A DNA stretch of 16,621 nucleotides. Source: Bacillota bacterium (GTDB lineage Bacteria > Bacillota_H > UBA994 > UBA5500). Below, in pieces: positions 6,003 to 7,690 of the stretch. Made by a program: the position numbers and the translations under genes. The DNA lies in assembly GCA_012727835.1 (NCBI GenBank), contig JAAYGE010000116.1, forward strand, positions 1 to 16,621, read 5' to 3'. The notes under the pieces were generated by a model. It had not been told where the DNA came from, ran no database searches, and saw nothing but the letters and a program-made list of their open reading frames with translations. Within the stretch, counting starts at the first letter, position 1. The number at the start of each line of letters is the position of its first letter.

Positions 6003-6529
6003 CTACCGCAAAGCTTTCCGCAGTGCTTCTACCACCCGATCGTGTTGGAATGGTTTAACGATAAAGTCTAGTGCCCCCGCCTGAATGGCCTCCACCACCA
6101 TGGCCTGTTGTCCCATGGCACTGCACATCACAATTCTGGCATCCGGATCTATCTTCTTGATCTCCCGGACAGCGGCGATGCCATCCAATTTGGGCATAGT
6201 AATATCCATGGTGACGATATCCGGTTTAAGTTCCTTATAACGCTCTATTGCCTGCTGCCCATCTTCTGCCTCACCACAGACCTCAAAATTATTCTTTTTT
6301 AATATATCTTTGATCATCCAATTGGACCATGTCATAGCCATCACAGCCTCGCTCATATGGCCTCTGAGGCGGCAATCTGCCTTACCGGCAAGTCAGCCAG
6401 CTAACAGGGGGCATTTCTCAACACCCTCCCCCAGCCTTCTTGCATATGGAGCGATTTTTATAATGAGGACGATGATCACTTTATCCTCATGAACGCTGCA
6501 TCATCGACTACTAAAACGCGGTGACTCAA
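6003..6529 (-). CDS. cheY: CheY response regulator, split by an intron (join 6529..6483 and 6318..6003)
   Basis: CheY carries the chemotaxis signal: phosphorylated by CheA, it binds FliM/FliY at the motor switch. The gene is in two pieces. Exon 1 (47 nt, TTG start at 6529, AAGGAGG nine bases upstream) encodes MSHRVLVVDDAAFMR plus two bases. Exon 2 (316 nt) supplies the rest. Joined, they give a normal 120-residue receiver with D9, D10, phosphoacceptor D54, S82 and K104, and the junction reads FMRMMIKDIL, the usual Gram-positive CheY sequence. Read through unspliced, translation stops at TGA 6478..6476 after 17 residues. An open frame from an ATG at 6356 inside the intron gives 117 residues but lacks D9/D10 and starts with intron-encoded residues, so it is not the real protein. 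No base in the exons looks damaged. It lies 21 nt after fliY, whose CheC-like sites can dephosphorylate CheY. Confidence 0.93.
6319..6482 (-). ncRNA. Compact ORF-less group I intron inside cheY (164 nt)
   Basis: Self-splicing group I introns fold around P1/P10, P3-P8 and a guanosine site in P7. Numbering the insert 1-164 from 6482: P1 pairs the last eight bases of exon 1 (6490..6483) with nt 13-20, ending in U.G at the splice site. P10 pairs the first eight bases of exon 2 with nt 5-12. P3 is nt 29-34 with 129-134; P4 is 40-44 with 91-95; P5 is a GGGGG/CCCCC stem (51-55 with 72-76), probably extended; P6 is 96-101 with 108-113. P7 is G119, bulged A120 and 121-125 with 154-159, giving CAGAGGCCA...TGGTCC against the consensus CAGAGACUA...UAGUCC. 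P8 (135-138 with 144-147) is weak. J8/7 is six bases. The insert ends in G (6319). P2 and a P9 domain are absent and there is no endonuclease ORF. Helices were found by eye; splicing is inferred. Insertion is in phase 2 of codon 16. Confidence 0.92.
6463..6478 (-). other. Internal guide sequence of the cheY intron
   Basis: This 16-nt stretch, TGATCATCGTCCTCAT on the minus strand, is complementary to the joined exon sequence ATGAGGAT|GATGATCA along its whole length, with a single G.T wobble exactly at the splice junction. The first eight bases would form P10 with exon 2 and the last eight P1 with exon 1. It also contains the TGA stop (6478..6476) met by ribosomes on unspliced RNA. The wobble is the classic group I 5' splice-site marker; the length of the match is seen directly. 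Confidence 0.9.
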
Positions 6530-6538
6530 GTGCTACAT

Positions 6539-6545
6539 CCTCCTT
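6539..6545 (-). promoter_or_regulatory. Ribosome binding site of cheY
   Basis: AAGGAGG lies between the fliY stop and the TTG at 6529, with nine bases to the start codon. The only upstream ATG (6538) is followed directly by TAG. This site fixes the cheY start upstream of the intron and is the main reason not to use the ATG inside the intron, which has only a short GAGG four bases away. Confidence 0.85.
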
Positions 6546-6550
6546 CTTGC

Positions 6551-7690
6551 CTACTGAAGATTGGTGACACGATCAACTACGCTAACGATGTCGGTGATCC
6601 GCACCCCGAAATTCTCGTCAATGACTACCACTTCACCCTTGGCAATCAGCTTGCCATTAACATAAATATCCACCGGCTCCCCGGCCACCCGATCCAGCTC
6701 AAAGATAGAACCGGGAACTAGGCTTAATACTTCTTTAACTGTTTTTTCAGTTCGCCCCAGTTCAACGGTCAATTGTAAAGGCACATCCAGCAAGAGCTGT
6801 AAATTTCCCGGGCTGTCCTGGGGGGTAGCCGCCTGGGTGTCGAAAGACTGAAATTCAACCGTTTTTACTGCTACCGGTTGACTGACCACCGTTTGCGCGC
6901 TACCACCGACTTTGGCAGTAGCCGTTGGGGCCTTCGGCGCCGATGGCGCAGGTGTCGATGGTGCAACTGGAATAGCTGTTTCTGGGCCGCTGGACGGCGG
7001 GGGGGTGGCCACCTCTTCGGCCCCGACCGTCAATAGGTCTAACATTTCTCTAGCAAAATCAACCTGCAACAACAGCATGATTTCCGAATCGATGAGGTCT
7101 TCCACCGTCATGCTAAAGGCAATCTGTACTAAGAACTCGCCGTTATCCAACCGGCTATCCAGAGGCGCTTGGCCTAAATCAATAACCCGCGCCGTGGGAG
7201 GGGAAATAACGAAAGTACGATTAAACATACTGGAGAGGGAAGTGGCAGCCGACCCCATCATCTGGTTCATAGCCTCGGATAAAGCACTGAGCACAAAATC
7301 GTCAATGGCCGTCTGGGGATTAAGCCCATCCCGCCCCATCATTAGATCGGCAATCACCGCGCCATCGCTGGTGCGCATTACCAGCAGGTTGCGCCCCTGC
7401 AGCCCTTCCGTATAGCCCACTTCCACTACGATAAAAGGCATCGGACTGGCCTCACGGATCTGTCGGGGCGTAGTAACGGACACTCGGGGAATGGTTATCT
7501 GCACCCGCCGATTGAGTAACGTGGACATGGTGGTGGCGGCAGTGCCCATAGCTATGTTGCCGATTTCGCCTAGAGTATCCCTCTCTGTCACTGTGAGAGT
7601 GGGCGGTTCCTTCTCCGGCTCGCTGCTTTCCTCCAGCGAAACATTTAATAGGGCATCAATTTCTTCCTGTGTCAACATATTACTCTCCAT
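6551..7690 (-). CDS. fliY: FliY, motor switch protein with CheC-like CheY-P phosphatase and FliN domains
   Basis: FliY is the Gram-positive switch protein that combines CheY-P dephosphorylation with a C-ring FliN domain. With the ATG at 7690 (GGAGGTG six bases upstream) it has 379 residues and overlaps the end of fliM by 11 nt; an ATG four codons on (7678) is an alternative. The N-terminus has the CheY-P-binding motif LTQEEIDALL. Two CheC-type active sites are intact: D38-x3-E42-x2-N45 then a Pro after 22 residues, and the SALSEAMN helix (S-x3-E-x2-N) with the same spacing to Pro. A Pro/Ala/Thr-rich linker (about 213-270) follows. The C-terminal FliN/SpoA domain (about 290-379) contains 'LDVPLQLTVELGRTEKTVKEVL' (in part) and 'VNGKLIAKGEVVVIDENFGVRI'. 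Its place next to fliM and cheY fits a signal-terminating role. Confidence 0.96.
   Translation of the reverse strand: MESNMLTQEEIDALLNVSLEESSEPEKEPPTLTVTERDTLGEIGNIAMGTAATTMSTLLNRRVQITIPRVSVTTPRQIREASPMPFIVVEVGYTEGLQGRNLLVMRTSDGAVIADLMMGRDGLNPQTAIDDFVLSALSEAMNQMMGSAATSLSSMFNRTFVISPPTARVIDLGQAPLDSRLDNGEFLVQIAFSMTVEDLIDSEIMLLLQVDFAREMLDLLTVGAEEVATPPPSSGPETAIPVAPSTPAPSAPKAPTATAKVGGSAQTVVSQPVAVKTVEFQSFDTQAATPQDSPGNLQLLLDVPLQLTVELGRTEKTVKEVLSLVPGSIFELDRVAGEPVDIYVNGKLIAKGEVVVIDENFGVRITDIVSVVDRVTNLQ

Follow-up and report, generated by a model that had tools for sequence, protein, structure and literature searches.

How can a cheY gene whose reading frame is broken by a stop codon still yield CheY? 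The question is raised by the window, the whole 16,621-nt stretch of DNA analyzed here, in which cheY lies on the minus strand as two exons, 6529..6483 and 6318..6003, separated by an insert at 6482..6319. The original prediction had cheY split by 164 nt at 6319..6482, and these coordinates proved exact. Exon 1 has a TTG start and consists of 15 codons plus AT; the ribosome binding site that had been ascribed to it is found as AAGGAGG at 6545..6539. Unspliced, its frame reads ATA AAG TGA and so ends two codons into the insert, as had been stated. Exon 2, assigned from the Pfam match, the PDB match, and the joined frame, runs to a TAG stop. Removal of the insert creates the junction AT^GATGATC, which reads FMRMMIKDIL, in a joined frame of 120 aa plus a stop, in agreement with the 120-residue CheY that had been forecast. 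The product matches PF00072 (E 1.8e-32) and the CheY structure 1tmy in the PDB (E 3.8e-53 over residues 1–118), and the expected D9, D10, D54, S82, and K104 are all present. The gene sits in what we take from the ORFs to be a flagellar operon, with the order, 5′ to 3′, of FliM- and FliY-like genes, cheY, and FliO/P/Q/R-like genes, and its RNA is probably part of the flagellar operon transcript.

What is the insert? With high confidence, judging from sequence, it is a minimal group I intron that interrupts codon 16 of CheY and would be spliced out to restore the frame, and carriers most likely must excise it from the mRNA to make CheY. We infer splicing and RNA catalysis from the anatomy, the homologs, the pair changes, and the exon conservation, all observed directly, and the chemistry from the family. 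In cheY RNA, the guide sequence would pair with both the end of exon 1 (P1, including a U.G pair) and the start of exon 2 (P10). A P7-bound guanosine would attack the 5′ splice site, after which exon 1 would attack just past the terminal G and AT would be ligated to GATGATC. The early stop codon would halt translation of unspliced RNA before a ribosome could reach the core.

The anatomy of the insert, from a hand-built fold, follows the order expected of such an element: P1 with a U·G at the 5′ splice site, P10 adjoining P1 on the guide, a P3/P7 pseudoknot, P4–P6, P8, and a terminal G. PMC3984707 describes the group I core in this order. P1 is formed by ATGAGGAT at the end of exon 1 (6483..6490), whose last base is the U of the U.G pair, and by GTCCTCAT in the internal guide sequence (6463..6470). 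The next 7–8 nt of the guide (6471..6478) form P10 with GATGATCA in exon 2 (6311..6318). P3 pairs 6445..6453, which has one bulged base, with 6350..6357. In the P4-P5-P6 domain, P4 (GCAAG at 6439..6443 with CTTGC at 6388..6392) is directly followed by P6 (6386..6384 with 6370..6368), and both are seen in the fold, the alignment, and RNAalifold. P5 pairs 6431..6436 with 6395..6400 and is topped by a P5a hairpin at 6407..6429 with a GAGA tetraloop, whose loop is identical in all four aligned rows; P6a pairs 6381..6378 with 6374..6371. The joiners around P4 and P5 are AA and RA, and J6/7 is 3 nt. P7 consists of GAGGCCA (6358..6364, with a bulged A at 6363) and TGGTCC (6324..6329), with a G-C pair between 6362 and 6325. 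A P8 hairpin (6336..6348) is followed, before the second P7 strand, by a short J8/7, ATGACA (6330..6335), and the terminal (omega) G is at 6319. The second strands of P3 and P5 and the P8 hairpin are backed by both fold and alignment. An earlier hand model with P4 at 60–65/96–101 was dropped; taking GCAAG/CTTGC as P4 and 60–65/96–101 as P5 fits all copies. The hallmarks originally listed (the U.G at the 5′ splice site, the terminal G, the order of P3/P4/P6/P7, the bulged A, and R/S-like strands including TGGTCC) are thus all in place. J8/7 presumably resembles the usual J8/7, and other single motifs presumably resemble those of named introns. There is no endonuclease ORF in the intron and no long ORF within the 164 nt; frames of 60 aa or more that overlap the intron (6003..6356 on the minus strand and 6310..6492 on the plus strand) extend into exon 2 or exon 1 DNA.

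Could such a fold arise by chance? The insert has an 8-bp P1 with an abutting 8-bp P10: a P1 of at least 8 bp with a P10 of at least 7 bp occurs in none of 20,000 dinucleotide shuffles. The folding energy of the insert is modestly low (z −2.05, matched by 7 of 200 shuffles). The P3–P8 topology, put as a loose descriptor, also fits 151 of 4000 shuffles (3.8%) and 16 of 402 window tiles, and was dropped as a chance test because it does not discriminate. It is thus P1/P10 and the comparison with relatives that carry the case. The search with Rfam group I models that the original prediction had proposed came back empty for the insert, with no match over 6250..6560 either at the gathering threshold or at E up to 10. 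Likewise, no Rfam group I match was found over loci L085 and L082, the homologous loci giving only two unrelated weak matches, and RF00028 found nothing in the three genomes with homologous inserts.

What do the relatives show? Of 80 cheY loci, the best found in genome contigs, 79 align without a break from residue 1 to residue 119 or 120, and a set of 109 loci (not de-duplicated) is also uninterrupted at the site. The one exception is L001, in the metagenome-assembled genome Bacillota bacterium JPNG_metabat.60 (G001), in which the match starts at residue 12. In L001 the same cheY site contains an insert of 162 nt, identical to the window insert in 144 of 165 aligned columns, and the flanks are 75–77% identical. 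Homologous inserts occupy the same site in G004 (174 nt) and in G003 (135 nt visible, followed by the Ns of a scaffold gap), so that three complete copies and one partial copy could be compared. A U.G-bearing P1 with a guide sequence is present in all four, P10 in all three whose 3′ exon is visible, and all 59 modelled pairs are standard in the two closest sequences. The terminal G is the same in L001 and G004; G003 has Ns there. The FliM-like protein is 80%, 79%, and 71% identical to that of the window in G001, G003, and G004, respectively, and 82% in G002 (partial, at a contig edge), compared with 32–35% in ten more of the 15 genomes covered; G009 gave no match. By this measure, G001, G003, and G004 group with the window. 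The insert is present in all three genomes of the clade that show the site, cheY not being seen in G002. Wider searches returned the same three genomes every time: 3 of 199 relatives in one search (R1), and 3 of 15 genomes of the class and 3 of 398 sampled from the phylum in another (R2). Across sets of 101, 199, 15, and 398 genomes, which overlap and of which the large ones were searched with stricter filters that lose weak matches, intron matches occur only in G001, G003, and G004. A DNA search found no second intron copy in G001, and a protein search of the 199 relatives found no further carriers above 80% identity to P0014. In viral contigs, ten stretches share a 17-base core pattern, of which none scores with R2 (best E 5.9); the P1/guide pattern occurs in none, and the CheY relatives encoded there are 47–53% identical.

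Have the pairings been maintained as the sequences diverged? In a four-row MAFFT alignment (A2) covering 59 modelled pairs and 211 cells, eight pairs are changed on both sides: one in P3 (A-U to G-C), three in P5, one in P5a, two in P6a, and one in P8. The shuffled mean is 3.6, and none of 500 shuffles reaches 8. Paired cells make up 95.7% of the 211, the nine nonstandard ones lying in P5, P5a, and P6a, and sliding the partners by 1–3 columns leaves at most 45.1% paired and at most three double-changed pairs, a control that favours the structure since it was drawn from two of the four rows; four related rows are also few. P1, P4, and P7 are invariant, with P7 visible in three rows, and therefore covariation does not test these helices; P10 varies once, on one side only. 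With no structure supplied, RNAalifold recovers P1, P4, the base of P5, most of P5a, P6, P6a, five of the six P7 pairs, and P8. The middle of P5/P5a comes out differently, and the program is unable to display P3 or P10 together with P7. The original prediction staked itself on any homologous insertions conserving the P3 and P7 pairings. Such insertions exist and keep both; as to covariation, P3 is supported by its one double change, and P7, being invariant, is neither supported nor refuted.

These pair changes also bear on how else the insert might be passed. It is most improbable that ribosomes bypass the insert, or that exon 2 alone is translated from an internal ATG at 6356. A 117-aa frame (6003..6356) is indeed open in the window, and the database protein P0002 shows a similar frame, but bypassing predicts no pair changes in P3, P5, P6a, and P8, the L001 frame from the same ATG hits a stop within the intron, and a product begun there would be without D9 and D10. 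The 117-aa frame, which begins within the intron and is not conserved in L001, is likely to be what a gene caller would report as CheY.

If the insert is a group I intron, is the gene around it still in use? Between the joined exons of the window and L001, 63 of 120 codons are identical, 51 differ synonymously, and 6 are changed (dN 0.029; dS 2.87, which is saturated; dN/dS near 0.01). This comparison shows strong purifying selection on the cheY exons. In G001, G003, and G004 no other close CheY was found; the next CheY-like matches there are 40% identical in a 368-aa frame, 43% in 371 aa, and 38% in 357 aa, respectively. Because the exons are conserved and no further close CheY turned up in the three carrier genomes searched, the interrupted gene is probably the working CheY of its carriers. 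The same two observations uphold the original claim that CheY would need RNA splicing in these organisms, and it is fair to infer that CheY output would depend on ribozyme activity. Could the insertion instead be dead, with cheY a pseudogene and the fold a relic? The stop codon in the exon 1 frame would fit, as would an in-frame stop in exon 2 of the G004 gene (L085), although an intact copy of that protein is on record (P0012). A dN/dS near 0.01, an insert shared in position by four lineages, and pairs kept by double changes are not what a relic would show, and this explanation is very improbable. In G004, a terminator-like hairpin follows cheY.

Protein databases hold traces of the same arrangement. 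With the 117-aa exon-2 frame as query, 8000 candidates were scored, and the best 120 include 24 proteins of at least 81% identity, P0001 being the window's own. Five of these nearest CheYs are uninterrupted (P0004–P0007 and P0010). The other 19 begin at MIKDIL or close to it: ten precisely at it, where the cause of truncation is not readable from the protein, and nine with extra residues. In five of the nine, the extra residues include MTWS, which is the translation of J8/7 plus the second P7 strand. The N-terminal 46 residues of P0021 match the intron translations of L001 (E 2.4e-9), the window (6.5e-7), and G004 (2.1e-5); the best of 79 control loci gives E 0.52. With intron-derived N-termini on the one hand and intact proteins on the other, it follows that more carriers exist and that uninterrupted alleles are close by. 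P0024, with its longer N-terminal extension, suggests that the intron of a relative has a longer 3′ tail. In P0021 and P0022, MTWSNSMMRR precedes MIKDIL; in those cheY genes the intron may sit a few bases further upstream.

Does the intron act unaided? P9 or P9.0 is usual in the P3–P9 domain, as a peripheral rather than a core element. In the hand-built fold the window insert has neither P2 nor P9, and L001 is likewise without them. The tail from the second P7 strand to exon 2 (AATTG, 5 nt, in the window and L001; ACCG in G004) has no P9 or P9.0 in any of the three. A P2 hairpin is present in G003 and G004, and together with the possible longer tail in the relative that encodes P0024 it makes the window copy look reduced. 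Hence, the element may descend from group I introns but, having lost P2 and P9, no longer splice unaided, needing a host RNA-binding protein, a chaperone, or a particular growth temperature. This is possible but not the favored account: the core is kept with compensating changes, and no protein partner is known.

A further proposal is that splicing acts as a conditional gate, responding to temperature, Mg2+, GTP, or a ligand and thereby setting the level of CheY and motility. The intron sits in the apparent only cheY, and temperature-dependent self-splicing of flagellin introns is the subject of a paper (Hayakawa and Ishizuka 2012, as cited in PMC3984707). Against this, 164 nt leaves no room for an aptamer, and the uninterrupted cheY genes of close relatives (P0004–P0007, P0010) mark the intron as dispensable in the clade. 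The gate is thus unlikely, and regulation of chemotaxis through splicing is speculation that no result here supports. It is similarly doubtful that the element is a retained gate on CheY without P2 and P9, responsive to temperature, Mg2+, or GTP, and one of a wider class of tiny introns. If there were such a gate, flagella would be built while CheY, and with it control of tumbling, was set by RNA folding; if there were such a class, tiny group I introns in bacterial protein genes would have been missed by RNA models and entered in databases as truncated proteins.

What are the implications of a simple group I intron in cheY, the favored reading? First, an intron in the apparent only cheY, kept across several related species with uninterrupted alleles nearby, is a natural comparison. 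Second, introns of 162–174 nt that escape the Rfam model mean that surveys with that model undercount them. Third, gene callers record the split host gene as an N-truncated CheY. Fourth, the small size of the element permits a quick test of self-splicing without P2 and P9.

How does the cheY intron compare with known systems? Few bacterial protein-coding genes contain group I introns. The Azoarcus tRNA-Ile intron, at about 205 nt, is likewise small, compact, and free of an ORF, but it interrupts a tRNA gene and has P2 and P9. The family model RF00028 (Intron_gpI) has the same helices in the same order (P1, P3–P8, P10, and the terminal G), but it spans 253 positions, compared with 162–174 nt for the cheY introns, of which two copies are without P2 and three without P9, and which do not score at E up to 10. 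In the open-access literature searched, no report of an intron in cheY or another chemotaxis gene was found; nor was any paper on the smallest group I intron found there, and no size record is claimed. A parallel is offered by the flagellin genes of thermophilic Bacillus/Geobacillus, which carry group I introns (Hayakawa and Ishizuka 2009, 2012, as cited in PMC3984707); like the cheY intron, these reside in a protein-coding motility gene of Bacillota, but in a different gene and at a different site. Flagellin introns in another Bacillota relative (G021) match RF00028, whereas the cheY intron does not. Two introns in that genome exceed the RF00028 cut-off, L116 (C8:58491-58812) and L117 (C8:43624-43955), and with L116, located where a flagellin frame ends, a motility gene is hit again. 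A third match there, L118 (C12:57432-57708), is below the cut-off (45.4 bits); a nearby 139-aa frame that looks by eye like a homing endonuclease, close to an smpB-like gene, suggests a tmRNA intron. PMC3984707 also lists group I introns in Bacillus recA and nrdE and in cyanobacterial nrdE, which are bacterial protein-coding hosts like cheY, although other genes. The group I mechanism and its occurrence in bacterial protein-coding genes, flagellin included, are thus known, and cheY joins these as a new host gene.
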